DNA from: an uncultured Roseburia sp.
Lineage (GTDB): Bacteria > Bacillota > Clostridia > Lachnospirales > Lachnospiraceae
Direction of reading: 5' to 3'
Assembly: GCA_944380515.1 (NCBI GenBank)
Contig: CALWHT010000051.1
Coordinates: 17,806-81,805, forward strand
Length of the DNA stretch: 64,000 bases
The translations under genes and the position numbers were made by a program. Below, piece after piece: positions 1 through 38,367 of this stretch; within the stretch, counting starts at the first letter, position 1; the number at the start of each line of letters is the position of its first letter. The notes under the pieces are model-generated. The model was not told the DNA's origin and searched no databases. It was given only the letters and a program-made list of their open reading frames with translations.

Positions 1-3000
1 ACAATGAAAGCGGCGAATTGCAGTGGGATAAGACCAGCGCTGCGGGAATGTATGTGGGAGCGATAGAGGGAGGCACAGTTACTGTCAAAGGAAGCCAGAC
101 ACCCTATAAAATCAATGTGCAGAGAGCAGACGGTTACGGAGGCGCTAACGGGGGACTGCTTGGAATGGCTTTTGGCACCCGGATTTCCACCGAAGCGGCT
201 GCGCATACGCCGGTGATACTTCAGGGAGCGGGAGTTCAGGGAAGAATTGCCGGAGGCATCCTGGGCTATTATGGGCGCGACAGTGAGGATGCCGGATTGG
301 CATTAAATTATGTTACCCTTCAGACAGAGATTTCGGCGGCTGACAACGCTTATTTTGCCGGAGGTATTCTGGGACGGTATTACCGCAATATCGACGGAAG
401 TGCGGAGGAAAGTGCTTATGATGTGATAGGGCATATCAATATTGAAAAAGCGGTCAGGGCTTCTTACTTTGCAGGGGGCGTTGTAGGGTTTGCTCACGGT
501 TCAAATCTAAGGATTGCGGACGTGAAGATAACCGGTAATGTAACCAATGAATTTGCGGGAGGAAATTATGCTGACTGCCGCGGCGCAGGAGGCGTTATAG
601 GACTGCTCAGCGGCCGGTATGTGGAGATTAGGAATGCACAGATATCTGCCGGCTTTCATCAGAACACATATGCAACCGGCGGGGTTATAGGTGCGGTAGG
701 CAAAATTAAGAGCAGCTTTAATGAACAGAGAAAATCAATCGTTAAAATCGACGGGGCAAAAGTCACATCAAGCTTCGGATGTGAAAGCGCCACGACCGCA
801 AGATGCAGAGGCGGCTTGCTGGGCGTGGTTTATCCGGGAAGCATGGTTGCGCTGGATGGTACCATTGATGTGTCGGGGATGTCCCTCACGCAGACGCTTC
901 AGCGGTTTGGAAGAACCGGATATATTGCAGGGTTCCAGGAGGAGGCATTGATTTATCTGGAAGAAACCGCAGTATATGAAAGGCCCGCAAAGGCATGGAA
1001 GGATGATATCGGAAATTACGGAGGATTATATAAAAACGGCGCCTGGGGAGAAGACGGGAAAACGTTAATCTCTTACGAGAAGGGCGAGGTAACAGGAATA
1101 GTTGAGAAAGACGCAGAAGGGGCGAGGGTTATTGACAGTGAGGCGGATTTCATCCGTCTTGCCATTATGCTCAATACGGGAGGTAATTTTGCTTCCGGCT
1201 GCTTTGACGGGCTGGATAAGGGAACACTGTTAAAAACCGATTATCGTGTGACGAAGTCTCTGAATCTGGCTGACAGCGGTATTTACAGTCTGAACAGAAA
1301 TGACAGCAAGGGTTTGGACGAAGTATTTCAGGGCAGTTTTGAGGGCAGCGGAAGTGAAAACGTTACCATCACCTTGGATAATCTTGATACCAATCAGTGC
1401 AATCTCGCATTATTCCCAAGCGTGGGAGGGGATACGGATTCTGCCGTTACGCCGGTTATTTCCGGCTTTACCCTAAAGCGCAGCATCAAGGGAGCAGGGA
1501 GCTATGCCGCAGGAATCGCATGTCGGGTATTGGGAAATTTTACAGCAGAAGATTTGAATCTTCAGGTAAGTATTACCAGCTATTATAGCGGCTATCATTT
1601 GGATAACCAGCATTTTGATAATATAACGAATTACTATGGCGGTCTGGCAGCGAAAGTGGATTCTAAGGGCGCTACAGCCTTTACCGTAAAGGATGTGAAA
1701 ATCGGCGGAACACTTATAACGCAAAGAAATTCGGGGAATAGCTGGGCCAATACAGTTGCAGGCGGGCTGGCAGCCGTATATGTTCAGACCGGGGCTGCCC
1801 CCTCTGAGATTTGTGTAGAGAGCTTTACATTGACCGGGGATTTTCACCTTGAGTCCGCGGGAATTTACAGCAGTGGAATGATTACTCTGCTGAATGCCGA
1901 CAATGATACGAAAGATCGGACAGTACTTTCTATGAGAGATATTCGGATTGAAAACGGCGCTTCTATGACAGAACGGTATGCACATGCTTCGATTGCCGGC
2001 GGCGGCTGGCTTGGATGCCAGTGGAAGAATATTGCGCCTGATCAAAGTGCGCATTATTCGATTGACGGCATTACCATTGGCAGTGGGGGCAGTGCGGAAG
2101 AAGGGCCGCAATTGTCCGCAGCAACCTCTTTTGGTGGCCTCGCAGGGCTTATTACCGGACGCATCCAGCTCAAAAACATTCATATTCAGAATGGAGTTTT
2201 TAAAAATAATTATTCCGGAACGCAAAAGAGCGGGCTTTTATTCCGCACAGGCACAGATGCACTGATTGAAATTGATGGATATACCATTGATGGCCGTACA
2301 CTGGAGAATCCGGGAACGCCGAATAATACAGGAAATGTGCGGTTAGCTCACAATAATTCCCAGATACGGTTTGACGAGATTGTGGCATCCAATGTGCAGA
2401 CCGACGGAAACGGAACTCCTACTTATATGTCCGGCGGTATTGTGAATATTATTTCCAGTCAGTTTACATCCGAACATAAAACTTATGCCCCCCGTCTGCT
2501 GGCGAATACGTCCAATGGATATAATTCCGGCAGATATTATTACAATCTTTTCGGAGACAGCTTTGAAAAGGAATCCTCATTTTTGCAGGAAGAAGAAAAG
2601 CTTACAAAAGAGAATGCGGTGATTCGGAACGAAAGGCAGATGATGATTTGGCATCTGGCGCAGTACATGAATGACTCCATCAGGCATTATTTGAAAGAAT
2701 ATTATAAGGATGGAGAGATCAGTGACCGCAGCGTCAATACCGTCTTTTCGGGAAAAATCGACCTTTCATCGGTAAGCTATTATCCCACTCCTGTTACGGG
2801 AGGAAGCTATACCTTTATGGATGACGGAAGCCGCAAGGCGGAGGTCTGCTTTTATGGGCAGGAGATTACAACAGCCGTGGCAGCTTCTATGGGGCCACAG
2901 ACAACGGCCAGCCAGCATTATATGCTGCATTCCGGCCTGTTTTTCAGCCCGTCCGGCACGGTGACGGTACAGGGGGAAACAGGCGGTTTCCTGAACTTAA

Positions 3001-6000
3001 GCGGCAGTGTTTCCAATCTGGGAAGCCTCACAGGTGCATTATTTTCCGGCAGGCTTGCAGGAAATAAGAACATATACCGAATCTGTTTCAATGGAATCGT
3101 TGTAGCGGACTATCAGGGGGAGGAGACTGTCGGATTAATGCTCGGAGACGTTGATGACGGCTCCACGCTGGATCTGTCATGGATAGAGACATCGGGCTAT
3201 GATGCACTGGGGGATAAAAAGGCAGCTTCTGCGCTGATTGGCAAAGTGGGCTCGCCCACGGCAAGCGATATCAGCATTGAATTCAGAAATATAAAAATAG
3301 ACAGCAGAAAAGAGGGTATTTTTCAGTTTGCAAGTCTGATTGATGAAAACTATTATGTGGAGGATACGGATGAAAATGCTGCCGATGACAGCAGTATCCG
3401 CCGAATCCGCTATCTGTTTACGCAGGCGGCATTTGAGGGAAAGACGGGTACTCCTTATGCGCCTTTTGATGATGCCGATTCCAATTACGGCAATAACAGC
3501 TATGTAGAGTCCTATGTAACCATCGGTTCAGAGCTGGCAGAGGGAATTGAATTCTGGGAAAATGAGAACGGACCGGAAGAAAATACGGAGTATTCGCTGC
3601 CGTTTAACGATAACTTTACCTGGACGGGAGAGAATGTAAGCAATACATATCTGCCTTATGTACATACGCAAACGCACGCAGGAAGCAAAGAAATTGAAGT
3701 CAATCCCAAGAACAGCGCGATTACAGAAGGGTGCGGCACCTATGAGGATCCCTATATCATCGACAATGCAAAGCAGCTCCTGTCACTGGCACGCTATCTG
3801 CAAAATAAGAATGACTACAAATATCTGACAGGCTGGCAGATCAATGCTTATCAGGCGGGACGTGGTGAAGCCGGGGATGGAATCTGCAAGAAACAGCACA
3901 GGAACGATGATTTGAAAGTGTACCAGAGTGAGGGCTTCCCGACCCCGGAGGAGTTAAGCCAGGCGTACTATATGATTTCTGAGGACATTGACCTGTCTGC
4001 TATGAAAAATTCCACAGACAGGCAGATTGCGGAGGATTTTGTAGGACTCGGTACAAAAAAGCTTCCCTTTAGAGGGGTAATCATAGGAGAGATTACGGCA
4101 GATGGCGATAAGCCTGCAATCACACTGCCTCTTAGAAAGAAATGGACATCTTCTACCAGCAATGTGAATCACGGTCTGATTCAGTATGCCAAAGGGGCGG
4201 TAGTAAAGGATCTGACGGTGAAAGGAGCAACGGATTCAGGCGATGGTGCGGGGACGGGAGTGGCCAAGGTAAGGAACATGGCGGGCGGAGTGATTGCCTG
4301 CGTCCTTGGCGGAGACAATATTATAGACAATGTCGCCGTAGCGGATTTAAAGATTGCATTGGCCAGTACGGATGTTTCAGCCGGGGCCTATGTGGGCAAT
4401 GTCATGCAGGGAAACCTTATTTTAAGGAACATGAACGAGAACTGTGCCAAGACTTTCTCGGTGGGAACCTGGGATGGGGATCGCTTTACGGGATTAACGG
4501 AAACGACATATGAGAACTATCCTTATGTGTCCGGGCTGATTGGCAAGGTAGAGGATGGCTGTGTTATTTATGAGGATGCTTATGGCAGTGGAACAACCTA
4601 TGGCAGTGCAGTGCTTGCGCATGACAGTAAGAAAATAGACGGGATTTATGATAATCCGACGCTCCCGATCTGTAAGCATTATGATATTATTGTGGGCAGC
4701 CATCTGGGGCAGGAACATCGGATTCCGCTGGAAGGCAGCGCAGAGGATGGATTCCTTGCATCCCTGGAGGATGCGGCAGCCCTTCAGATTGTTTCTATGG
4801 CAACCAACTCGGACGCCTTTTCCATTCATTATGATGAGGGCGGATATAGTCAAAATGCTGCCTGCCGTAAGGCGGCATACAGTGAGGTGGGGAATGTTTC
4901 TGCTACCGGAGCGGGCAGTGATTTTCGGGCGGCAACAGAGCATGATGATGAAACCTACACCGAGCCCTACCTTTATAAATATTTTAATTTTGATGCGATA
5001 GGCGGAAGGGAAGTGACCCTGCAGGAAAGTCAGGAGAGCAGCGGAAGCTATATCAGCAGGCTGAACGCGGCAGCTACAGAGATTACAACCGTCATGAGCT
5101 ATCGGCTGAGTGCTGCGGCCCCGGATGCTGTTTACGATATGAGCGTATATGGCAGAGGCTTTCGCGGGTTAGGCGCTACCTACGGTATGCTGACAAATAC
5201 CGCTTACAAAGAGGTGACCGGAGATAAGCTAAACGGGGAGTTTTATTCGGATTTCAGAGCAAACTTTGACGGAAATGGGAAAACAGTCAAAATTGATATT
5301 GACAGGAGCTATGACAGCACAATCCATACGGCAGCGTTGTTCAATGACCTTTTGGACCGAACGGCCCAAGCCACTTATGAGATAAAAAACCTGACGGTAA
5401 CCGGCAAAGTTGCCAGCGCGGGAGAAGCTCCTGACGGAAATAGAGATTACCCGAACCGTACTGCGGCGCTGATTGGGTTAATGAGAAAACCCTGGAAGCT
5501 GAGTGGCATCACGGTAGAGGATATGACCATAAACGCGAAGGGGCATGCCGGAGGAATTGTGGCATGGATAGAACCGGAAAATGATACTACATTCAATTTC
5601 AGCAATTGTGAGATTAATCGTACTGAGATATCCTCTTATGGAGGAAGTGTGGGCGGTATAGTGGCTGTAATGACCCAGCACACAGATGTGAACACGAATT
5701 TCAGCCGTGTGAAGCTTACATTGGAAGGATGCCAGGTAAGCGGAGAGATAGATAAACTTGTCCAATTGGAGGTAAAGAACAGGACTGCGGAACAAACGGA
5801 TAGCAGCGGGACAAATTATCTGAATATCCAAAGAGCAGTAGGACGCAGCGGAGGATTGATTGGATATATCGGGCCCAGACATTCCAGTATCGGGACTGCC
5901 AAACCCGTCGTTTCTGTGGACATTCATTCTACAGAGGTTTCCTGTGCAGCTGTCATCGGAGCCTATGCAGCGGGCGGCCTGATAGGGGAGTATGACGGCT

Positions 6001-9000
6001 CGGATTCCGCATCAAATGCAGCAGAAGTAACGATTTCCGCCGCTGCGATACAGGATTGCAGCATTGAGGGGACGAGAGGCAATGTAGGTACTTCAGCCAA
6101 TTACGATAATTACGGTGTTGGAGGACTCATAGGGGAAATGCGCGGATATAAGCTTGCCGTTGGCGCGGCAGACACTGCAGTATCTGTTTCCAATACCCAT
6201 GTGGTTTCCTCTGCGGATTCCTTTAACAGCAGTGACGCGGCAGCGTTGAGAAACGGTATGTATGCCGGAGGCGTGATTGGATGTCTTAAGACAACGCAGG
6301 CAGAACTGACGGGGGTGTCTGTTGTCGGAATAGACGGCAATGATGGTTCGGCACCTGACTTCGGAGAGCAGACGTATCAGATTAAGTCCGGAAAAGCGGA
6401 TGTCGGAGGTGTGATTGGCAAGACGGTCGGAGCGGGTAAGCTGACGATGAAAGACATACAGGTATCGGGTATGCATATTACTGCGGGCGATTGGGACAAA
6501 GACAGCTCCGGAGAGAAAATTTTTGCGTCAGGCGGCAGAGCGGCGGGGCGTGTCGGGGGAATGATCGGAGCAAATCAGATGGAGCTGACGATTCAGGGTT
6601 TGGATGCTGGTACCGTTGCGGATGAGAAGGGCGCGGAAGTGGCGAACTGTATGATTACCGCATCCGGCAGTCATGTGGGCGGAATCATTGGCGCTTTGGA
6701 AAGCAGCGGTTCCCCCAATTACCTTCCGGATACAAGCCTCGAAAAAGTAGCCGTTTTTGACAGTATCATCGGCTATAACCATGAAGACTGGTTTAGCTGC
6801 ACCGATGTCGGAGCAGGCGGGATTTTTGGGGGAATCCCCAATGTGGCTGCCCACTTTAACAGTCATAGACTGGAAAATGTAAGCATTGAAGACTGTTGGA
6901 TTTATGGCGCCAATGTGGGAGGTGTGGCAGGGCAGAGCCAGAATTATGCAAAGCTGTCTTCCTGCACGACCGGATCTGAAACGGCTGCCGGTATTACAGT
7001 AGAGGGAAATGCAATGTATGGCTGTAATGCAGGCGGCGCAATAGGAAAGTGCAGCTCCACGGCAGTCAATTTTGTCGGAATGGAGATTAAAAATAACCGT
7101 CTGCAGGCATATGGGACACAGACTGCGGTTCCTTCGGCAGGAGGATTCTGCGGATATACCGACATTGGGACGAATCCTGATTACAGATTGGATTATATTT
7201 CAATAGAGGGAAATCATATTCTTGCAGCAAATACTGCGGCAGCGAAAAAAATCAACGCAGGAGGATTTTTCGGTTATTCTAATTGGAAGAATTGTTACAT
7301 CTACCGCACCGGCCTGAAGGATAATCGGATAGGCTATAGTGAGACCGACCATGGTGCAGAGTTGATGAATCCAAACGCTGATTCCGATTCGAAGACGGAG
7401 ATGAAGCTCCTTCAGATATTGTTTGGAAAAGATAATGGAGAAATAAGTGCAGGGAACAGAGAGGTATATTTACTTCAGGGCAAGGAAAACAGCCTGGGAA
7501 CGGTTGCTATGCCCGGTGCGGAGAATCTGCGGAGCGGTTCAATAGGAAAGTACGCAGCCAGAATCGGAAACCTGATTGGTACTTATGGAGGAAATGAACC
7601 CGTTTATTTCCTTGCACCCGGCATTTCCTATGATGACAGCATTGCCGTGCGCCCGGTTATTGATGTGGGAAGTAAAGAAGAAGTGCCAAAAGAAAACGCC
7701 GGTCTTTTGGATGCCCCCTATGAATATCGTAAGAATATTCATATTATTTATCATGAACCGGAAGCAGCAGCGGATGAAGATGCGAAGATATGGGGAGAGA
7801 CCAGCGTAGACGGTGACTTGGATAATTGGAAGTATCTGTTTGAAGGCATCAGCTATCAGGGGATTATTGAAAAATATCGGGCTGCAGAAGTTACGGATGA
7901 TATTTCCGGATATTTGGATGCTTATCGGCTTGATGTGATTGTGGATCAGGCGGCAGACTTAAATGTGGAGGAGGTGTATGAAAAGCTTTATCGGGGCAAG
8001 AATTCAGATGCAGATCCCGAGACACTGAAAAGTGTTCTGCAGCTTGGCACTACTGGGAAATATCTTCCGGTAATTGTCCTTGATACCCAGTACGGTACGG
8101 CAGACGAGCTGATGAAAGGGGTTCTGGCGGCACTGACCGGAGTGGGCGGAGTATACAACCATGAGAACGCGGCTTATACCTCTGCAATGGGAGGCATTAC
8201 AAATATCAGCACGAAAAAAATGGAGATTACGGATGATGGAAAAATCATTTTAAAATCAGGGGAACTGCCCGGCCTGAATGCAGTAAAAACAGGAACGAAG
8301 TGGACGCTGGAATACCGGGATTATGATAATGACGGTTTAAACGGAGAACCGCAGACCTTTACTCTTGTTACGGTTACCTATGAATGGAAGTATAAAAATG
8401 CTGCCGGAACGGAGGTAGTGAGAAAGGAAGAAATCCGGATTCCTGTCTATGTCATGGAGCGTCTGATGGTGGATACCCATGTAAAGATTATGGAAGGCTT
8501 TGTGTATAATGCAGACAAGATAAAGCAGGAGGGCCTGTGCTCTGATGTAGTGATAGCCAATGACAGCTCCTATACTCTGTATTCGGAATATATCTACGGA
8601 GACGCGCGTAAAAAATATTCCATCGGAATGGACAAAAGAGTGGGAATGACCTCCCCGGATGGCCAGACAAATACGGGGTTTGCGCCCGGAACCAAACTGA
8701 CGCTGATAGATGTCTGCGATGATAATAAGGTGTACTATTATACGGTCACGGAAGAAGATGGCGGAGAGACTATCCCGTTTACAAGGTTTACAACGGATGG
8801 GACAGCTTCCGGCACATATTATAAGAATAAGCCGATTGATCAGGATAACGGATTCGAGGTGTATGGTGAACAACAGGCTTTTGTAACAACGGATATGGAA
8901 CAGGTCGGTAACCAGAAGGAGATGCGGGAATTTGAGTATACGGATGTTGCAGTGGAACGTTTTCTGATTAATGTTGATATTTCGGCAGTAGAGGAGGGTA

Positions 9001-10412
9001 ACCGATTAAAGAAAACACTTGGAAAATTTGATATAAGTCCCAGGCTGACGGAGGATGTGACCAAGAAAACAACGCTTACAAATCATACAGATCTTCAGGC
9101 GACAATCCAGCCGGGCATGGAAATCAGGCTGGCGAATAAAGGACTGACCAATGAGGAAGAAAAGACCTGGATTGAAGGCAGTATCCAGGCAAGCGAGGAG
9201 GGCGTTGTGAATATCTGGGCAGCCATTGATATCAGTGCGGAGCAGGAATACTGGGTCGCTGTTTCACAGGCCAGAAATAATACCATAGACAGCGCAAACA
9301 ATCATAAGTATCTGGAATTGCAGCTTTATCTGACGCCTTCCGGAAGCGATCAGGAGCTTCAGCTTCCTGCCGGAACCAATGTTACCATTCAGGGAAAACG
9401 AACGAAGCCGGAGGGGATTATGGTAGATGGGATTGCGGATAAGATTGACACAACCAAATTGGATCCCATTTACAATACATCGAATGTTTATTTTTATAAA
9501 GACGGAAGAACGCAGGATGGAACGCTGGAATTTGCGCTGAACGATTTGCATAGAATCATTCAGCAGGAGGAAGCGCTGAATCATAAGACATCCGGTACAA
9601 TCAGGTGGGTGAATCAGATGACACTGGATTTTAGAAATGCGGATATGACGCCTTTTGACCTGGAAAAATATACGGTTCACTTAAGATTGCTTCGTGCAGA
9701 GGATAAGGATTATCCTGTAGGCGGAGAAGTGTTGGATACCTATGAGAAGGATTGCCCTGCAGCCAAAAAGTCAGATCTTGCCTGTGCGGTGGAAGCCAGG
9801 GATTTGATGATGCTTGGAATCAATACCTATCAGAACCAGACCACAATGCCTCATGAAATCGACTTTGATTTTAAGCTGGATTTTTCGGGTGTGATGACCG
9901 GCATTGAGGAAACGGACAAGGAGCTTGCCAATAAGCATTATACGGCAGTGTGCCGAATGAAGGAAAAGAAGCGAAAGGATGACGGAACGACGGAGTATGT
10001 TCCCTATGAAGGAGAACAGTTAGAACTGGAACTGACAGATGATGTGTCAGGAAAAACGCTTCAGACAGCAGTCTCAAATGATGCGAATTCATCCGGGGAG
10101 AAATTCTGGTACGTGGACCTTACATATGAGAAGGATGCATTTTGGCAGGAGATTAAAAATGGCACCAAATATCAGGTAATTGAGGAGGGACAGGAGAAGG
10201 AAGAACAAAGCGGGGGTCTGTTGCTTAGAACGATGAAGCTGAAGGTAAAGGACGCCTCCCGGATGGAGCTTTCCAATTATATGGTAGAGGCTGTCGTTTA
10301 TGTCAGCGATGAGGCGTTAACTCCTGAACAGATAAATCTCAACTCGAGTTCCGCCTTAAGAGATTTCTTCGTATTTACGGTGGCAAAATTAAAAACGGAT
10401 TTGGATTATTAA
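1..10412 (+). CDS. Giant GG-motif (GLUG-like) repeat surface protein, 5' end outside window
   Basis: The frame is open from base 3, so about 3469 residues are visible and the true N-terminus lies upstream. More than twenty short motifs of the form x-GG-[VIL]-[ILVAF]-G recur, first about every 35 residues (around 45, 79, 114, 150, 190) and again densely between about 1830 and 2420. Glycine-rich repeats of this kind resemble the GLUG motif of large secreted Gram-positive proteins and would suit a long beta-solenoid; that fold is inferred. A linker reading GTYEDPYIID near residue 1240 restarts a repeat block. From about residue 2500 the repeat stops and the chain looks like ordinary beta-rich domains. 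No LPXTG motif, hydrophobic anchor or choline-binding repeat is visible at the C-terminus, which simply ends in DLDY. Probably extracellular, perhaps an adhesin; function is not established. Confidence 0.8.
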   Translation, partial: NESGELQWDKTSAAGMYVGAIEGGTVTVKGSQTPYKINVQRADGYGGANGGLLGMAFGTRISTEAAAHTPVILQGAGVQGRIAGGILGYYGRDSEDAGLALNYVTLQTEISAADNAYFAGGILGRYYRNIDGSAEESAYDVIGHINIEKAVRASYFAGGVVGFAHGSNLRIADVKITGNVTNEFAGGNYADCRGAGGVIGLLSGRYVEIRNAQISAGFHQNTYATGGVIGAVGKIKSSFNEQRKSIVKIDGAKVTSSFGCESATTARCRGGLLGVVYPGSMVALDGTIDVSGMSLTQTLQRFGRTGYIAGFQEEALIYLEETAVYERPAKAWKDDIGNYGGLYKNGAWGEDGKTLISYEKGEVTGIVEKDAEGARVIDSEADFIRLAIMLNTGGNFASGCFDGLDKGTLLKTDYRVTKSLNLADSGIYSLNRNDSKGLDEVFQGSFEGSGSENVTITLDNLDTNQCNLALFPSVGGDTDSAVTPVISGFTLKRSIKGAGSYAAGIACRVLGNFTAEDLNLQVSITSYYSGYHLDNQHFDNITNYYGGLAAKVDSKGATAFTVKDVKIGGTLITQRNSGNSWANTVAGGLAAVYVQTGAAPSEICVESFTLTGDFHLESAGIYSSGMITLLNADNDTKDRTVLSMRDIRIENGASMTERYAHASIAGGGWLGCQWKNIAPDQSAHYSIDGITIGSGGSAEEGPQLSAATSFGGLAGLITGRIQLKNIHIQNGVFKNNYSGTQKSGLLFRTGTDALIEIDGYTIDGRTLENPGTPNNTGNVRLAHNNSQIRFDEIVASNVQTDGNGTPTYMSGGIVNIISSQFTSEHKTYAPRLLANTSNGYNSGRYYYNLFGDSFEKESSFLQEEEKLTKENAVIRNERQMMIWHLAQYMNDSIRHYLKEYYKDGEISDRSVNTVFSGKIDLSSVSYYPTPVTGGSYTFMDDGSRKAEVCFYGQEITTAVAASMGPQTTASQHYMLHSGLFFSPSGTVTVQGETGGFLNLSGSVSNLGSLTGALFSGRLAGNKNIYRICFNGIVVADYQGEETVGLMLGDVDDGSTLDLSWIETSGYDALGDKKAASALIGKVGSPTASDISIEFRNIKIDSRKEGIFQFASLIDENYYVEDTDENAADDSSIRRIRYLFTQAAFEGKTGTPYAPFDDADSNYGNNSYVESYVTIGSELAEGIEFWENENGPEENTEYSLPFNDNFTWTGENVSNTYLPYVHTQTHAGSKEIEVNPKNSAITEGCGTYEDPYIIDNAKQLLSLARYLQNKNDYKYLTGWQINAYQAGRGEAGDGICKKQHRNDDLKVYQSEGFPTPEELSQAYYMISEDIDLSAMKNSTDRQIAEDFVGLGTKKLPFRGVIIGEITADGDKPAITLPLRKKWTSSTSNVNHGLIQYAKGAVVKDLTVKGATDSGDGAGTGVAKVRNMAGGVIACVLGGDNIIDNVAVADLKIALASTDVSAGAYVGNVMQGNLILRNMNENCAKTFSVGTWDGDRFTGLTETTYENYPYVSGLIGKVEDGCVIYEDAYGSGTTYGSAVLAHDSKKIDGIYDNPTLPICKHYDIIVGSHLGQEHRIPLEGSAEDGFLASLEDAAALQIVSMATNSDAFSIHYDEGGYSQNAACRKAAYSEVGNVSATGAGSDFRAATEHDDETYTEPYLYKYFNFDAIGGREVTLQESQESSGSYISRLNAAATEITTVMSYRLSAAAPDAVYDMSVYGRGFRGLGATYGMLTNTAYKEVTGDKLNGEFYSDFRANFDGNGKTVKIDIDRSYDSTIHTAALFNDLLDRTAQATYEIKNLTVTGKVASAGEAPDGNRDYPNRTAALIGLMRKPWKLSGITVEDMTINAKGHAGGIVAWIEPENDTTFNFSNCEINRTEISSYGGSVGGIVAVMTQHTDVNTNFSRVKLTLEGCQVSGEIDKLVQLEVKNRTAEQTDSSGTNYLNIQRAVGRSGGLIGYIGPRHSSIGTAKPVVSVDIHSTEVSCAAVIGAYAAGGLIGEYDGSDSASNAAEVTISAAAIQDCSIEGTRGNVGTSANYDNYGVGGLIGEMRGYKLAVGAADTAVSVSNTHVVSSADSFNSSDAAALRNGMYAGGVIGCLKTTQAELTGVSVVGIDGNDGSAPDFGEQTYQIKSGKADVGGVIGKTVGAGKLTMKDIQVSGMHITAGDWDKDSSGEKIFASGGRAAGRVGGMIGANQMELTIQGLDAGTVADEKGAEVANCMITASGSHVGGIIGALESSGSPNYLPDTSLEKVAVFDSIIGYNHEDWFSCTDVGAGGIFGGIPNVAAHFNSHRLENVSIEDCWIYGANVGGVAGQSQNYAKLSSCTTGSETAAGITVEGNAMYGCNAGGAIGKCSSTAVNFVGMEIKNNRLQAYGTQTAVPSAGGFCGYTDIGTNPDYRLDYISIEGNHILAANTAAAKKINAGGFFGYSNWKNCYIYRTGLKDNRIGYSETDHGAELMNPNADSDSKTEMKLLQILFGKDNGEISAGNREVYLLQGKENSLGTVAMPGAENLRSGSIGKYAARIGNLIGTYGGNEPVYFLAPGISYDDSIAVRPVIDVGSKEEVPKENAGLLDAPYEYRKNIHIIYHEPEAAADEDAKIWGETSVDGDLDNWKYLFEGISYQGIIEKYRAAEVTDDISGYLDAYRLDVIVDQAADLNVEEVYEKLYRGKNSDADPETLKSVLQLGTTGKYLPVIVLDTQYGTADELMKGVLAALTGVGGVYNHENAAYTSAMGGITNISTKKMEITDDGKIILKSGELPGLNAVKTGTKWTLEYRDYDNDGLNGEPQTFTLVTVTYEWKYKNAAGTEVVRKEEIRIPVYVMERLMVDTHVKIMEGFVYNADKIKQEGLCSDVVIANDSSYTLYSEYIYGDARKKYSIGMDKRVGMTSPDGQTNTGFAPGTKLTLIDVCDDNKVYYYTVTEEDGGETIPFTRFTTDGTASGTYYKNKPIDQDNGFEVYGEQQAFVTTDMEQVGNQKEMREFEYTDVAVERFLINVDISAVEEGNRLKKTLGKFDISPRLTEDVTKKTTLTNHTDLQATIQPGMEIRLANKGLTNEEEKTWIEGSIQASEEGVVNIWAAIDISAEQEYWVAVSQARNNTIDSANNHKYLELQLYLTPSGSDQELQLPAGTNVTIQGKRTKPEGIMVDGIADKIDTTKLDPIYNTSNVYFYKDGRTQDGTLEFALNDLHRIIQQEEALNHKTSGTIRWVNQMTLDFRNADMTPFDLEKYTVHLRLLRAEDKDYPVGGEVLDTYEKDCPAAKKSDLACAVEARDLMMLGINTYQNQTTMPHEIDFDFKLDFSGVMTGIEETDKELANKHYTAVCRMKEKKRKDDGTTEYVPYEGEQLELELTDDVSGKTLQTAVSNDANSSGEKFWYVDLTYEKDAFWQEIKNGTKYQVIEEGQEKEEQSGGLLLRTMKLKVKDASRMELSNYMVEAVVYVSDEALTPEQINLNSSSALRDFFVFTVAKLKTDLDY

Positions 10413-13485: not shown

Positions 13486-13572
13486 GAAAAACTCTCCTTT
13501 GCAATATACATTAGTCCTATCGCAAAATTTGAGGATTGTCAATATAATTCATGCCTGAGTTTCCGTAAATTT

Positions 13573-13737
13573 GTAACAGTTCAGCCCGCGCCATTCGCAA
13601 AGCCGAGCCAGAGGCGCTTTTCCGCTGCTGCGCAGCTATCTTTGCTCATTATCGGGCGCTCGGCTCATAAGCTGCACAACAGGCAACTTCATGCAAGCAT
13701 GATTTGCCTGTCATACAGCTTATGGCTGAACTGTTAC
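13573..13737. repeat. Structured intergenic repeat, copy 1 (165 bp)
   Basis: Bounded by a perfect 14-bp terminal inverted repeat (GTAACAGTTCAGCC at 13573-13586, complement at 13724-13737). Inside are a 9-bp stem (13666-13674 with 13716-13724) and a nested hairpin with TCATGC/GCATGA arms. An 8-bp direct repeat GTAAATTT flanks it (13565-13572 and 13738-13745) and could be a target-site duplication. A second copy lies at 18468-18591. This copy fills the space between the divergent pectinesterase and aldolase genes and has a 32-nt extra segment absent from copy 2. Confidence 0.8.
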
Positions 13738-13780
13738 GTAAATTTCATTTTCGATGTGGCAAAAGAACCGCAGTGTTTGG

Positions 13781-13809
13781 TTGAAATTATAGGTGTGGGT
13801 GTTTATAAT
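13781..13809 (+). promoter_or_regulatory. Sigma-A-type promoter of the aldolase-glgX operon
   Basis: TTGAAA (13781-13786), a 17-bp spacer and TATAAT (13804-13809). Transcription would start near 13816, about 30 nt before the chosen aldolase start codon. Confidence 0.7.
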
Positions 13810-13847
13810 AGAAGCAGATACGCATGATAATGAGAGAGAGGTTTTGT

Positions 13848-14552
13848 ATGGGCTTAAGCTTTATGGAACTGCGGGAACAGATTTGTGATGTGTGCCGCAG
13901 GATGTGGCAGCTCGGTTGGGTGGCGGCCAATGACGGGAATGTATCGGTGAAGCTTGCGGATGGTACTTTTCTGGCGACGCCCACCGGGCTTTCAAAGAGC
14001 ATGGTGACGCCGGAAAAAATCGTCAGAGTGGATGGCGAGGGAAATATTCTGGAGGCGGAGGACGGGTATCGGCCGTCTTCGGAGCTGAAAATGCATTTCG
14101 GGTGCTACAGACAGAGGGAGGATGTGGGGGCGGTGCTGCATGCACACCCGCCGGTAGCAACCGGCTTTGCCGTGGCAAATCGTCCGCTGGATGAATATTC
14201 TATGATAGAGACCGTTCTTTCTCTCGGCTCCGTGCCGGTCGCGCCGTATGCCACACCTTCGACCGAAGAGCTTGCGGAGGCGCTGGCGCCGTATCTGCCG
14301 GAGCATGATGCTGTACTTTTGAAAAACCATGGCGCGGTTACGGTGGGGAGCGATGTCTATACGGCATACTACCGCATGGAGACGCTGGAGCAGTTTGCAA
14401 AAATTACGCTCACCGCCCACTTGCTTGGAGGCGCGCAGGAGATGGAACGAAGCGATATTGACAGGCTCATTGATTTGCGGGAGCATTACTATCGAATGAG
14501 CGGAAGGCACCCGGGCTATAAGAAATACAGCCAGGGGGAGAAATCAGAGTGA
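13848..14552 (+). CDS. Class II aldolase (L-fuculose-phosphate aldolase type)
   Basis: Zinc-dependent cleavage of a sugar phosphate or epimerisation by the same chemistry; the exact substrate (fuculose-, rhamnulose- or ribulose-phosphate) cannot be told from sequence. In 234 residues the zinc ligands H98, H100 (HAHPP) and H161 (KNHG) and the catalytic E79 (SSELKMH) are all present. I start at the ATG at 13848, which has GAGAGG 6 nt upstream; the in-frame ATG at 13824 would lie almost on the predicted transcription start. The stop overlaps a possible GTG start of the next gene. No sugar kinase or isomerase gene is next to it, so the pathway is open. Confidence 0.88.
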   Translation: MGLSFMELREQICDVCRRMWQLGWVAANDGNVSVKLADGTFLATPTGLSKSMVTPEKIVRVDGEGNILEAEDGYRPSSELKMHFGCYRQREDVGAVLHAHPPVATGFAVANRPLDEYSMIETVLSLGSVPVAPYATPSTEELAEALAPYLPEHDAVLLKNHGAVTVGSDVYTAYYRMETLEQFAKITLTAHLLGGAQEMERSDIDRLIDLREHYYRMSGRHPGYKKYSQGEKSE

Positions 14553-14641
14553 AAAGGAAGTGGTTCGCTCGGCTGGTTTGTGTCTGCGCGGCAATCATAA
14601 ACCGGCGAAAGGTCAAAAGCTGCGCAGAAACGGGGGAAACG

Positions 14642-16753
14642 ATGAGCTTTAGAAGGCATAAACAGGAGCGGGGAGTCGGGCTTCAGCCGTTGGATGAGAT
14701 TTGCGGTTACAAGGTTCGACCGGGCTTTTACAACAGGGATGGAGCGACAGCCACCACGCGCGGCGTCAGCTTTACAATCCATTCCTTTGGCGCGACGGGC
14801 TGTTCGGTACTGCTGTTTCGCCCTCAGGAGTCTGAGCCGTTTGTCTCGCTGAAATATCCCGAGGCGTATCATATCGGAAATACCTATTCCATGTTTGTAT
14901 TTGGGCTTAAAATAGAAGAATTTGAGTACGCATTCGAGCTGGAGGGCCCTTATGACAAGGAAAAGGGACTTTTGTTCGATAAAAATAATATTTTATTAGA
15001 CCCTTATGCGCGGGCGGTAACGGGACAGCGCAACTGGGGAGAGCGCCCCGAAGGGGGGAAGCCCTTTGTCTATCACGCGCGGGTCGTGGAAAACAATTTT
15101 GACTGGGGAGACATCAGACAGCCGGAGCATCCGTCCGAGGATTTGATTATTTACGAGATGCATGTGAGGGGCTTTACCAAGGACGCCTCCTCTGGAGTGA
15201 CGGCGGGCGGTACCTACGAGGGACTGCGCCAGAAGATACCTTATCTGAAGGATCTTGGAATCAATGCGGTGGAGCTGATGCCTATCTTCGAGTTTGACGA
15301 GATGGAGGGAAACCGTATCGTAGACGGGCAGCAGCTCTATAATTACTGGGGATATAATACGGTATGCTTTTTTGCACCGAATACCAGTTATACATCCGCG
15401 GTTGAGCACAACCATGAGGGGGATGAGTTAAAGGAACTGATTTATGAGCTAAAGGAAAGCGGAATCGAGGTCATTCTTGACGTTGTATTTAATCATACGG
15501 CGGAGGGCAATGAAAACGGTCCGTGCTTTTCGTTTAAGGGAATCGACAATAATATTTACTACATTCTGACACCGGACGGTTATTATTATAATTTCAGCGG
15601 CTGCGGAAATGTCATGAACTGCAACCATCCCATGGTGCGCCGGTTTATCATAGACTGTCTGCGCTATTGGGTGACGGAGTACCGGGTAGACGGCTTCCGC
15701 TTTGACCTGGCATCCATTTTGACCAGGGATGAAAACGGTGTGCCGATGGCAGACCCGCCTCTGCTGCAGGCGATTGCCTACGATGCGATTTTGGGAAAGG
15801 TGAAGCTGATTGCGGAGGCCTGGGATGCGGGAGGCCTTTACCAGGTGGGAAGCTTTCCTTCCTGGAGCCGCTGGTCGGAATGGAACGGAAGATATCGGGA
15901 TGATATCCGACGCTTTTTAAAGGGAGACGAGGGAATGGCAGGAACTGCCATCACCAGGATTACGGGATCCAGGGACCTCTATGACCCTGCACAGCGGGGC
16001 ACCGCCGCTTCCGTAAATTTTATTACCTGCCACGACGGCTTTACGCTGTATGATTTGTATGCTTATAATGTCAAGCATAACGAAAAAAACGGCTGGAATA
16101 ATACAGACGGGGATAATAATGGAAATAGCTGGAATTGCGGTGTGGAAGGCGAGACGGATGACAAAGAGGTCGACGGGCTGCGCCGGCGTATGATAAAAAA
16201 CGCATTTGCGACGCTTATGTGCAGCAGGGGACCTGCCATGTTTTATGCGGGGGATGAGTTCTGCAACACCCAGTTCGGCAATAATAATGCCTATTGCCAG
16301 GATAATATCATTTCCTGGCTGGATTGGACGAGGCTGGAGAAGTACCGGGAAATCCATGATTTTTTCCGTTATATGATTGCCTTTCGCAAAAAATATGCGA
16401 TTTTGAGAAAAACCACGAAGAAAGCGGTCTGCGGTCTGCCGGAAATCAGTATTCACAACGGATTCCCCTGGAATGGAGGAACTGATAATTCCAGCCGACT
16501 GATAGGCATTATGTATGCGGGAAGGGATGAGGCGGACACGCGGGATGATGTTGTTTTTTACGCGATGAACGCTTACTGGGAGACGCTTGTCATGCAGCTC
16601 CCGGAGCTTCCGAACGGATTGCAGTGGAAGGTGCGCGTAAATACATCCGTGGAATACGAAGACGGAAAAGATATGGAATCATTTACGGAATTTTATTATA
16701 AAAAGACCGTTAAGATACCGCCGCGGACGGCGGTGATATTGACGGCGGAATAG
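14642..16753 (+). CDS. glgX: Glycogen debranching enzyme, GlgX/isoamylase type (GH13)
   Basis: Hydrolyses alpha-1,6 branches in glycogen or limit dextrins. An N-terminal CBM48-like beta domain (about residues 15-110) is followed by a GH13 barrel with DVVFNHT, GFRFD (nucleophile D355), IAEAWD (acid/base E392) and TCHDGF (D465). The long acidic N-rich stretch after the last motif is typical of GlgX and bacterial isoamylases. I start at the ATG at 14642 (GGGGG about 5 nt upstream, 703 residues); a GTG at 14549 overlapping the aldolase stop would add 31 residues that look like out-of-domain sequence. It shares a promoter with the aldolase; no glycogen synthesis genes are in the window. Confidence 0.9.
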   Translation: MSFRRHKQERGVGLQPLDEICGYKVRPGFYNRDGATATTRGVSFTIHSFGATGCSVLLFRPQESEPFVSLKYPEAYHIGNTYSMFVFGLKIEEFEYAFELEGPYDKEKGLLFDKNNILLDPYARAVTGQRNWGERPEGGKPFVYHARVVENNFDWGDIRQPEHPSEDLIIYEMHVRGFTKDASSGVTAGGTYEGLRQKIPYLKDLGINAVELMPIFEFDEMEGNRIVDGQQLYNYWGYNTVCFFAPNTSYTSAVEHNHEGDELKELIYELKESGIEVILDVVFNHTAEGNENGPCFSFKGIDNNIYYILTPDGYYYNFSGCGNVMNCNHPMVRRFIIDCLRYWVTEYRVDGFRFDLASILTRDENGVPMADPPLLQAIAYDAILGKVKLIAEAWDAGGLYQVGSFPSWSRWSEWNGRYRDDIRRFLKGDEGMAGTAITRITGSRDLYDPAQRGTAASVNFITCHDGFTLYDLYAYNVKHNEKNGWNNTDGDNNGNSWNCGVEGETDDKEVDGLRRRMIKNAFATLMCSRGPAMFYAGDEFCNTQFGNNNAYCQDNIISWLDWTRLEKYREIHDFFRYMIAFRKKYAILRKTTKKAVCGLPEISIHNGFPWNGGTDNSSRLIGIMYAGRDEADTRDDVVFYAMNAYWETLVMQLPELPNGLQWKVRVNTSVEYEDGKDMESFTEFYYKKTVKIPPRTAVILTAE

Positions 16754-16764
16754 GCGGCTGCTTT

Positions 16765-17496
16765 TTACAGAAAGCCGCCGTCCAGTACAATGACCTGACC
16801 GGTGAGGTAGTCGTTGCCCTCTGCAAGCTGCAATGCGAGCGCGGCGACCTCTTCGGGGGTTCCGAAGCGGCCGGCGGGAATCTCGTCCATCAGGGCAAGG
16901 CGTTCTTCCTCGGTAAAGCAGGCGTTCATCTGTGTGTCGATGACGCCGCAGGCAATGGCGTTTACCTGGATATTGCTCGGAGCAAGCTCCTTGGCAAGGG
17001 CCTTTGTGAACGAATTGACACCGCCCTTACATGCAGAGTAAGCAACCTCGCAGGAGGCGCCGGCTACGCCCCATACAGAGGATATATTGATGATTTTGCC
17101 GCTTTTTTGGTGAATCATGCGGGGAAGTGCCAGCTTGCAGGACAGGAAAACAGAGGTAAGGTTGACACCGACCATACGGTTCCAGTCCTCGAGGCTCATG
17201 TCGCTTAAAAGTCCGATGTGGGAAATACCGGCATTGTTGATGAGGACGTCTACACCCCCGAAACGGCTGTTTGCGGCTTCGAATAACGCTTCCATGTCCG
17301 AAGCGGAGGAGACGTCACCGACAAACGGAAGGACGTCGACGGGGCAGCTTTGTTCCAGTTCCATTTTGAGCGCGGTGAGCTCGTCGGCGGATTTTAAGCA
17401 GGTAATGATAAGATTGTAACCGGCCCTGGCAAAGGCGTGTGCAGCGGCGCGGCCGATGCCTCTGGAGGCTCCGGTGATAAGTACGGTTTTTTTCAT
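16765..17496 (-). CDS. Short-chain dehydrogenase, FabG/YmfI type
   Basis: NAD(P)-dependent reductase of 243 residues with the classical SDR layout: nucleotide motif TGASRGIG (8-15), NNAG (87-90), catalytic serine (about 140), Y153 and K157. The closing stretch ending VIVLDGGFL is typical of 3-oxoacyl-ACP reductases. It stands alone, without other fab genes, so the elongation factor P-modifying reductase YmfI, which is often encoded singly in Firmicutes, is a fair alternative. It is convergent with glgX, only 11 nt apart, and divergent from the VanW gene. Confidence 0.85.
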   Translation of the reverse strand: MKKTVLITGASRGIGRAAAHAFARAGYNLIITCLKSADELTALKMELEQSCPVDVLPFVGDVSSASDMEALFEAANSRFGGVDVLINNAGISHIGLLSDMSLEDWNRMVGVNLTSVFLSCKLALPRMIHQKSGKIINISSVWGVAGASCEVAYSACKGGVNSFTKALAKELAPSNIQVNAIACGVIDTQMNACFTEEERLALMDEIPAGRFGTPEEVAALALQLAEGNDYLTGQVIVLDGGFL

Positions 17497-17617
17497 AAAA
17501 GCTCCATTTCATTTTACGTAATACTTGTTTAGGGCATATTATAGCAGTTTTTCTCGTATACTGCCACAGTGATATGGTATAATGTAATTAGCACAGAATG
17601 ATTCGGGAGGGAAGCGT
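17497..17617. promoter_or_regulatory. Divergent promoter region of SDR and VanW genes
   Basis: TATAAT hexamers face both ways: 17578-17583 on the plus strand for the VanW gene and 17538-17543 (ATTATA as read) on the minus strand for the dehydrogenase. The -35 boxes are weak; GTGGCA on the minus strand is the better one. Confidence 0.4.
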
Positions 17618-18463
17618 ATGAGAAGGATAACAGGGAAAATAAAAATGTTTGCGGTGCTTGTGTGCATTTGTCTGGCGGCAGGAGGGACTGTGCCTGCTTT
17701 TGCGGCATCTGCCGGCGGTTATCGGGCGGTGTTTGATGCCGATTACTATTATCAGGCATATCCCGATTTGCAGGCGGCGTTTGGAAAGGACTCTGCGAAA
17801 CTGTACCGGCATTTTGTGACGTTTGGAATTAAGGAAGGGCGTTCCGGCTGCGCGGATTTTAATATTGACGTATACCGGGCGAATAATCCCGATTTGGTAA
17901 AAGCCTTCGGCGGGGATTTGGAAGCATATTGTAATCATTATGCGGTATACGGAAAAGCGGAGGGACGCATCGCCTCGGACGGGACGCAGCCGGCGGCGTC
18001 GTCAAAACAGGAAACCGCGGGCACTGTCGTCTCAAGCTATACGACCTATTATGAAACGGGCGTTCCGAGAGCGTTAAATATCCAGGTGGCGGTATCCCGG
18101 CTGAACGGAACGGTAGTGCAGCCCGGCACCGAATTTTCCTTCAGCGGTACCATTCTTCCGAGAACTACGGCCAACGGTTATGTACCGGGTCCCGCTTACT
18201 CAAACGGAGAAGTCATTCAAAGTGTCGGCGGCGGGATTTGTCAGGTGTCGTCCACACTCTACGCCGCTATGCTCACCGGTTCCGTTCCGGCGAGCGAGCG
18301 CCATGCACATTCCATGCCGGTACCGTACCTGCCCGAAGGAATGGATGCGACGATTTCCGGCAACTGGCTGGATTTGAAGTTTGTCAATCAGCAGGCGTAC
18401 CCCATACTCATTCAGGCGTCCGCGTCCGGCGGGGCCCTGACGGTTACCCTGCTGCGTCTGTGA
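17618..18463 (+). CDS. Secreted VanW-domain protein with two YxxxYPDL-type repeats
   Basis: A signal peptide (about residues 1-32, ending AFA) is followed by two similar segments of about 40 residues (roughly 39-80 and 84-122), each with an aromatic-rich helix, a PDL or NPDL turn, a G-K/G-D step and an ending like GxxEGR. The C-terminal half (about 140-281) is a VanW domain with ALNIQVAVSRLNG, a GTEFSF turn and GGGICQVSSTLY. The VanW domain occurs in Gram-positive envelope proteins and its biochemical role is unclear. GGGAGG lies 6 nt before the ATG. The stop codon is 4 nt from the second structured repeat. It is not next to vancomycin resistance genes, so no resistance role is implied. Confidence 0.85.
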   Translation: MRRITGKIKMFAVLVCICLAAGGTVPAFAASAGGYRAVFDADYYYQAYPDLQAAFGKDSAKLYRHFVTFGIKEGRSGCADFNIDVYRANNPDLVKAFGGDLEAYCNHYAVYGKAEGRIASDGTQPAASSKQETAGTVVSSYTTYYETGVPRALNIQVAVSRLNGTVVQPGTEFSFSGTILPRTTANGYVPGPAYSNGEVIQSVGGGICQVSSTLYAAMLTGSVPASERHAHSMPVPYLPEGMDATISGNWLDLKFVNQQAYPILIQASASGGALTVTLLRL

Positions 18464-18467
18464 AATT

Positions 18468-18591
18468 GCAACAGTTCAGCCCGCACCATTCGCAGCTGCC
18501 TTTGCTCATAATCGGGCGTCATGTCTCACATGCCGGTCAAATTCATGCAGGCATGATTTGCCAGTCATATGAGACATGGCTGAACTGTTAC
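18468..18591. repeat. Structured intergenic repeat, copy 2 (124 bp)
   Basis: Ends GCAACAGTTCAGCC (18468-18481) and GGCTGAACTGTTAC (18578-18591) match those of copy 1 with one mismatch. The internal block CTTTGCTCATAATCGGGCG and the hairpin with TCATGC/GCATGA are conserved. The 9-bp inner stem (18520-18528 with 18570-18578) has different bases from copy 1 but pairs perfectly. It sits between the VanW gene and the tRNA gene, in the same orientation as copy 1. Confidence 0.8.
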
Positions 18592-38062: not shown

Positions 38063-38367
38063 TGCTGTGACATTGATAGCGTAGAAGCGTGAGGTTGCTG
38101 CCCGTGTGGCAGGTTTTCCGTGGAGCGAATGTCAAGTTAGGAAACTGGCGACAAGTCACTGTATACGAGTAACATCTACAGAGTAGAAACAACGTGCGGG
38201 CAGCCCTGTGCTGTCAGAGAAAGCCGGATAGTCCTGCCGGGGGCGGGAAAGGCAGCTTTCACTTCGCAGAACAGTTGCGATACGCACGGGAATGTGTGCA
38301 GTCACCGCTTGTCGTACAAAAGCGATTATATCGCTTGTAAAAGTGCGAAAAGGAGGCGACTTTTTTT
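38063..38367 (+). ncRNA. Structured 5' leader of the S10 operon
   Basis: About 305 nt with no credible ORF. GCTGCCCG (38097-38104) pairs with CGGGCAGC (38197-38204), closing a domain of about 100 nt, and a small AAGCGAT/ATCGCTT hairpin stands just before the rpsJ binding site. Leaders of S10 operons are often targets of autogenous control by L4 in proteobacteria; whether this one is controlled similarly is inference. Confidence 0.5.

Follow-up and report, generated by a model that had tools for sequence, protein, structure and literature searches.

A non-autonomous IS66-type transposon in Roseburia with a folded core related to the Clostridiales-1 RNA family

A mobile element with a conserved fold

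The 64,000-nucleotide stretch of DNA analysed here (referred to as the window), part of contig CALWHT010000051.1 from an uncultured Roseburia sp. (Lachnospiraceae), carries two copies of a short non-coding element (Table 1), whose boundaries had been placed correctly in a preliminary description of this DNA. The element is a non-autonomous transposon, a miniature inverted-repeat transposable element (MITE), with ends of the IS66 type and with a folded core that is related to the RNA family Clostridiales-1 (RF01699). The explanation that is considered probable is that this MITE is moved by an IS66 transposase and that its core, of the Clostridiales-1 lineage, is kept for the spread of the element itself.

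A single-open reading frame (ORF), ISBst12-like transposase of the IS66 family would recognise the 14-bp end GTAACAGTTCAGCC, move the MITE in trans and generate an 8-bp target duplication on insertion. Between the ends lies the folded core of the RF01699 lineage, on the minus strand in the window, with stem letters that drift while the pairing stays. Lineages acting as sources of spread would retain the fold, and individual inserted copies would decay freely. Selection on the fold is likely to act through the element's own spread, and the folded molecule, probably an RNA made from source copies, may aid this spread or the tolerance of the element rather than serve an adjacent host gene; any biochemical role of this molecule is inferred.

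An unexplained small RNA (sRNA) family of Rfam would gain a likely identity in this way, as the folded core carried by mini-transposons. A general question also becomes testable, namely why a DNA mini-transposon that encodes no protein keeps a fold while so much of its sequence changes. The material for such a test is available in the form of a partner transposase, a known strand, a set of invariant letters and numerous stems with natural variation.

Mobility and distribution

The element had been presented as a two-copy repeat, which is too low a count. A DNA search of the host genome yields 10 related places at E <1e-9, both window copies among them, several of which are cut or internally deleted, and one additional, highly diverged copy (C3:5026-5198) shares the ends of the others and differs in its body, with a long inner stem of its own. 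The exact 14-bp end is present in 18 of 60 genomes of the same genus and its reversed control in 0 of 60. One 2.4-Mb draft genome (G026) holds 267 exact ends, which points to a burst that was very large and is probably recent. Scanning of contigs with a relaxed pattern gave at least 120 stretches, 80 of them named among the matches listed, mostly with Lachnospiraceae names; a first, stricter contig pattern gave 0 matches, as did one element pattern in viral contigs.

Mobility is well supported by the flanks of these copies, in agreement with the suggestion that this is a small mobile element. When inverted ends are paired at a spacing of 28-300 bp among the collected loci, 150 distinct end-to-end copies are obtained, 62 of which have a perfect 8-bp target duplication compared to 0.39 expected with the right flanks shuffled, while no perfect duplications of 9 or 10 bp are found among them. 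The 8-bp direct repeat described around copy 1, GTAAATTT on both sides, recurs in kind around many other copies. A smaller set with a spacing of up to 620 bp gives a similar picture, with a perfect duplication in 24 of 56 copies (0.44 expected), and the perfectly duplicated target sites are 77% A+T. Copies measure 31-198 bp, with a length of 146 or 163-165 bp in 103 of the 150; near-palindromic forms of 85 bp exist, and perfect duplications also flank core-less copies of 31-32 bp and 85 bp.

Bacterial MITEs such as RUP, Correia/NEMIS and ERIC are described in the available text of PMC2229807 as about 100-200 bp long, with terminal inverted repeats and target duplications; their transcripts are predicted there to fold stably, and RUP was assigned to an insertion sequence (IS) via its ends. 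The window elements resemble these MITEs in size, inverted repeats, target duplications and the match to an IS by the ends, but differ from them in the extensive compensatory change between subfamilies and in the occurrence of one core with two kinds of ends.

A few loci have unusual arrangements. At L086:718-1300 (G058:C73) an element that has these ends and is perfectly duplicated at its 8-bp flanks measures 583 bp, and by eye it looks like one very long imperfect palindrome. At L087 (G029:C15:6714-6934) the ends lie head to tail at a spacing of about 103 bp, forming a small tandem array of partial copies. Two contigs of G000 (C17 and C54, first 145 bases; L016 and L019) have CTTAACTAACTGACATTG in common, adjoining element fragments, and when read jointly they resemble a short element into which another IS was inserted with a 10-bp duplication.

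The probable partner transposase

No named family was known for the element in the preliminary description. Its ends do belong to one, IS66 (single-ORF, ISBst12-like), and its body is a distant relative of RF01699 that scores below the cut-off of that family. The match between ends and transposase is directly supported by locus L085 (G034), in which a 1829-bp IS with a single ORF of 485 aa lies between element ends, one of them with a single mismatch. The ORF matches Pfam DDE_Tnp_IS66 (E 5.4e-19); the IS has no target duplication of its own. Relatives of this transposase were sought in 397 family genomes at E up to 1e-60, and close ones occur in two genomes: G427 contains two pieces, with 70 and 69% identity, and G362 a single piece with 88%. 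In each of the three, the exact 14-bp end follows directly on the 3' end of the gene. Element ends that are exact or have one mismatch are found, too, in the vicinity of fragments of close transposases in G034 (87%), G026 (77%) and G004 (56%). Pfam IS66 loci from nine genomes (matches in two of the nine) were rejected as partners, as the three loci have no end with up to 2 mismatches within their 1.5-kb flanks; L085 emerged from the pairing of ends in G034.

ISDge4, of the single-ORF ISBst12 group of IS66, has the terminal inverted repeat GTAACTGCTCAGCA, an 8-bp direct repeat and a transposase of 449 aa in the part of PMC12898284 that describes it. The present system resembles it in the end GTAACAGTTCAGCC, the 8-bp duplication of the element copies and the single 485-aa ORF of the L085 IS. 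Two IS66 elements in Paracoccus have 8-bp repeats as well, according to the available published text (other sources, likewise in part: PMC12888890; PMC3281130). Unlike ISDge4 and the ISBst12 group, the window elements are non-coding and contain a folded core. Both features of an ISBst12-like, IS66-derived MITE, the IS66-type ends and the 8-bp target duplication, were found. The element copies would be mobilised in trans by an IS66-family transposase.

A longer segment of the same locus (L085:1082-6953, G034:C173), 5872 bp long and bounded by the left end of the IS and the right end of an element copy, has ATTTGCAT on both flanks, as if an IS end and an element end were used jointly. It contains genes for an Rrf2 regulator, an acyl-CoA dehydrogenase/ETF/rubredoxin fusion and a flavodiiron-like protein, and is possibly a compound transposon with oxygen-response genes.

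Conservation of the fold

In the fold, a long hairpin is capped by G(CUUG)C, which is a stable RNA tetraloop, and is followed by a branched core. The internal loop of this core, AUGA/GAAU, is able to form tandem G-A pairs. Conservation of this fold was assessed in an alignment of copy 1 with 39 representatives, 40 diverse copies in all, for which RNAalifold gives 44 pairs, 24 of them with two-sided compensatory change; 96.6% of the cells are paired versus 86.1% after shuffling. The pattern by which 34 of the 40 copies were found contained the 14-bp end and ATGCTTGCAT, so that ends and loops are invariant there by construction. The count was therefore repeated without the end and loop-proximal helices, which also removes two loop-adjacent pairs that the pattern did not fix. 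Among the 29 pairs left, 21 change on both sides, 95.8% of the cells are paired versus 80.6% shuffled (0 of 500 shuffles as high), and the covariation is 0.429 versus 0.152. Sliding one side by 1-3 columns leaves 28-45% paired. Every pair of the short 4-5 bp core hairpins (helices 6 and 7) shows two-sided change, and ATGA and GAA in the internal loop, which were no search criterion, are invariant in the 40 copies.

The inner stem of the two window copies had first drawn attention to the fold, with three pairs alike, six different and full pairing in both. Pairs 1-3 (CAT/ATG) are indeed identical, and pairs 4-9 are Watson-Crick in each copy, with both letters different at all six; the pairing extends to about pair 16 in the minus-strand reading, with some G-U, and copy 2 has two unpaired positions. 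The compensatory change holds well beyond two copies. In 21 in-register representatives, with 11 further ones (of 32) left out for their shifted register, 253 of 273 inner-stem cells pair, whereas 1000 exchanges of arms between copies give 156 on average and 185 at most, and up to 11 compensated pairs distinguish two inner stems. The earlier proposal that the fold is selected or that the element carries a variable tag is upheld for the compensated stem; the tag is better viewed as a stem that can drift while it pairs, and its sequence is common to the copies of one subfamily and different between subfamilies.

The observation is no chance effect. A covariance model built from copy 1 and the 39 other copies, with copy 2 left out, recovers copy 2 independently with 92 bits (E 6.4e-17). 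Copy 1, which is part of the model and matches by construction, scores 169 bits on the minus strand versus 33 bits on the plus strand.

Relation to the Clostridiales-1 RNA family

RF01699 is listed for Clostridiales and the human gut, with a 'y' for RNA and an 'n' in the next two columns of the table, in the available text of its description (Weinberg et al. 2010, PMC2864571). In Rfam, the family is typed as an sRNA gene. The two columns marked 'n' are presumably those for regulation and switch. No link of Clostridiales-1 to a transposon was met among the publications listed for either topic or in the available text of PMC2864571.

The relation is visible only in a permissive scan, as the window gives just a tRNA and the S10 leader at curated Rfam thresholds. 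An element copy of the host genome then matches the whole model (1-166) on the same strand with 37.3 bits (E 1.4e-5), and the diverged C3 copy, scanned alongside, gives no match. Copy 1 (L001:1503-1661, minus) reaches 35.5 bits where the cut-off is 48. Five of nine loci scanned at E up to 0.5 match, with 26.4-37.3 bits for copies of the host genome and 38.5 bits for L095. Conversely, the covariance model of the element, built without RF01699 loci, matches 19 of 30 RF01699 loci in the same place and on the same strand at E up to 1. Six of the 19 are below E 0.01 (best 1.5e-4) and one is partial; three further matches lie elsewhere in the loci. RF01699 itself is found in 83 of 150 family genomes (63 above the cut-off) and in none of 14 control genomes. 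The shared features are a long hairpin with the UGCUUGCA tip, CGCC, the AUGA-GC..GC-GAAU internal loop, the strand and the order of parts. The core of the element thus appears homologous to the RF01699 lineage, which is well supported by these reciprocal matches, and its membership of the family is sub-threshold.

The RF01699 copies that could be delimited differ from the window elements, with their IS66-type ends and 8-bp duplications, in having the ends GATACCAGGGTCAAAAG... and ...CTTTTGACCCC.ACATC and mostly 7-bp duplications. Among 16 complete, end-paired copies with the core, 10 have a perfect 7-bp duplication (0.74 expected) and 2 an 8-bp one (0.13 expected). The 5' end GAT....GGGTCAAAAG is exact in 14 of the 30 RF01699 loci, looser in 7 and absent in 9, several of which differ by one or two letters; 4 of the 30 sit near contig ends. 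One core therefore occurs in IS66-type elements and in GAT....GGGTCAAAAG elements, that is, in at least two kinds of vehicle. The transposase of the second vehicle was not found in G163, with 6 end places, or in G099, with 100 places among the matches listed of 155. The one end pair about 1.5 kb apart in G099 was rejected as its IS, having unmatched flanks and element-like sequence at the ends. The outer stems of RF01699 loci L164, L167 and L172 are unlike both kinds of ends, and these loci may be further vehicles or immobile copies.

A more far-reaching proposal, which is unlikely as a whole, would make the Clostridiales-1 core a selfish RNA module that uses at least two unrelated vehicles and promotes its own spread as an RNA cofactor; it might, for example, recruit a host or transposase protein via the tetraloop hairpin and the AUGA/GAAU core, leaving the main-stem sequence free.

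Strand preference and alternative explanations

Whether the paired changes reflect selection is informed by the balance of G-U over A-C pairs on the minus strand. Over the 44 pairs and 40 copies, G-U outnumbers A-C by 41 to 17 (p 0.002), with 5:3 in the end helix, 20:6 in the inner hairpin and 16:8 in the core, and the 21 in-register inner stems give 18:6. Within the recent G026 subfamily no such preference exists: 24 copies of 146 bp have 16 changes to G-U and 18 to A-C, and 12 copies of 164 bp have 7 and 10. A preference between lineages and none in the recent subfamily is read as selection on the spreading lineages with free decay after insertion. Hairpins chosen by folding energy give G-U:A-C ratios of 15:3 in the host genome, 6:15 in G026, 10:7 in other genomes with IS66-type elements and 29:3 in RF01699 loci; these counts were set aside, because such a choice favours G-U and the copies are related.

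The strongest competitor is mutational. The same mobile element could acquire its paired changes with no selection if, during replication, each hairpin arm serves as template for the other (quasi-palindrome correction), an explanation that retains a minor share of probability. Long hairpins do adjoin the ends, near-palindromic 85-bp forms occur, and the recent subfamily lacks the G-U preference; its 146-bp class also changes more at paired than at unpaired sites (0.022 versus 0.005 per site), with 0.017 versus 0.021 in the 164-bp class. However, arm copying predicts strand symmetry, whereas G-U exceeds A-C between lineages, if only by 27:14 in the stricter set, and it is at odds with the two-sided change throughout the short core hairpins and with the invariant loop letters. 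It is quite unlikely, next, that the fold acts as single-stranded DNA, forming hairpins during replication or transposition that are used by the transposase or by host factors. The inner stem directly adjoins the end, the left end of the partner IS in L085 can itself fold back (GTAACAGTTCAGCC CTCC GGCTGAACTG), and a preference for one strand is expected when one strand is used. Yet the core also occurs with different ends and a mostly 7-bp duplication, so that it is not tuned to one transposase, and core-less copies of 31-32 bp and 85 bp carry perfect duplications, which deletion after insertion would explain. A regulatory RNA or terminator used by the host and domesticated at many sites is very improbable. 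Copies are mostly intergenic (2 of 124 strand-assigned copies overlap an ORF), RF01699 has its Rfam typing as an sRNA gene, and orientation is non-random. For the 91 copies that have a called neighbour on either side within 800 bp (31 more were not counted, and ORFs were called by length only), the core strand is antisense to both neighbours in 42 and co-directional with both in 20 (p 0.007), with 23 copies between divergent and 6 between convergent genes. Against host use stand the many copies with fresh target duplications, the decay of the recent subfamily without G-U preference and the spread of the exact end over 18 of the 60 genomes; a position shared between related genomes is known in one case, copy 2, the sole position compared.

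Several results weigh against the favoured explanation, a MITE moved by IS66 whose Clostridiales-1-lineage core is kept for its own spread. The strand preference is less firm in other counts: 27 versus 14 in the stricter 29 pairs (p 0.06), 16 versus 8 in the core helices alone (p 0.15), 9:5 and 8:7 by distinct pair types, 12 versus 14 in the 11 shifted-register stems, and 40 versus 41 in all 32 representatives before register correction. The cells moreover lack independence, and the program from which the structure was taken itself favours G-U. In single-stranded DNA, G-T is better tolerated than A-C, so the G-U excess cannot separate RNA from DNA hairpins, and, being modest (41:17; 27:14 without 15 pairs), it indicates no more than that the fold may act as RNA. 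The curated RF01699 cut-off of 48 bits is reached neither in the window nor in any of 17 and 20 loci; L004, L007, L009 (copy 2) and L090 have no RF01699 match at E up to 0.5, and 11 of the 30 RF01699 loci are missed by the element model. As for the transposase, none of the IS66 family was seen when the host genome was searched, so that its copies are immobile now unless a transposase enters, and for IS66 transposases of the genus at a greater distance (26-35% identity) the best nearby end has 3 mismatches. An empty site for copy 1 was not found, the sibling contig G006:C108 ending before that position.

The copies in the window

The terminal inverted repeats had been described as imperfect over 14 bp, which applies to copy 2, with a single mismatch, but not to copy 1, where they are perfect. 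The core of copy 1 comprises a helix GCGCC/GGCGC, the internal loop (ATGA/GAAT on the minus strand), a helix GCAAAG/CTTTGC and two small hairpins.

Table 1 Features of the two element copies (window coordinates; stem arms in plus-strand letters)
Feature	Position	Strand	Remarks
Copy 1 (A)	13573..13737	minus (conserved fold)	full-length 165-bp element
Copy 1, left 8-bp target-site duplication GTAAATTT	13565..13572	none	perfect
Copy 1, right 8-bp target-site duplication GTAAATTT	13738..13745	none	perfect
Copy 1, terminal inverted repeat GTAACAGTTCAGCC, IS66-type end	13573..13586	plus	100% complementary to 13724-13737
Copy 1, terminal inverted repeat, other end GGCTGAACTGTTAC	13724..13737	minus	pairs with 13573..13586
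Copy 1, inner variable stem, arm CATAAGCTG	13666..13674	minus	
Copy 1, inner variable stem, arm CAGCTTATG	13716..13724	minus	
Copy 1, conserved core	13588..13659	minus	alignment of 40 copies and consensus fold
Copy 2 (I)	18468..18591	minus	older element, internal deletions
Copy 2, inner variable stem, arm CATGTCTCA	18520..18528	minus	
Copy 2, inner variable stem, arm TGAGACATG	18570..18578	minus	

Copy 1 is flanked by genes for a pectinesterase and a class II aldolase. The neighbours of copy 2 are a VanW-like gene on one side and, on the other, a tRNA and then the gene for OMP decarboxylase. The flanks of copy 2 show no target duplication. An orthologous insertion occupies the identical place in the sibling genome G006, and copy 2 therefore predates the split between G006 and the host.

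Elsewhere in the window, an ORF of 3464 aa at the left edge (18-10412) includes a stretch of 1647 aa without a Pfam match at E up to 0.001, and the leader at 38074-38154 is an S10-Clostridia ribosomal protein leader RNA (95 bits).

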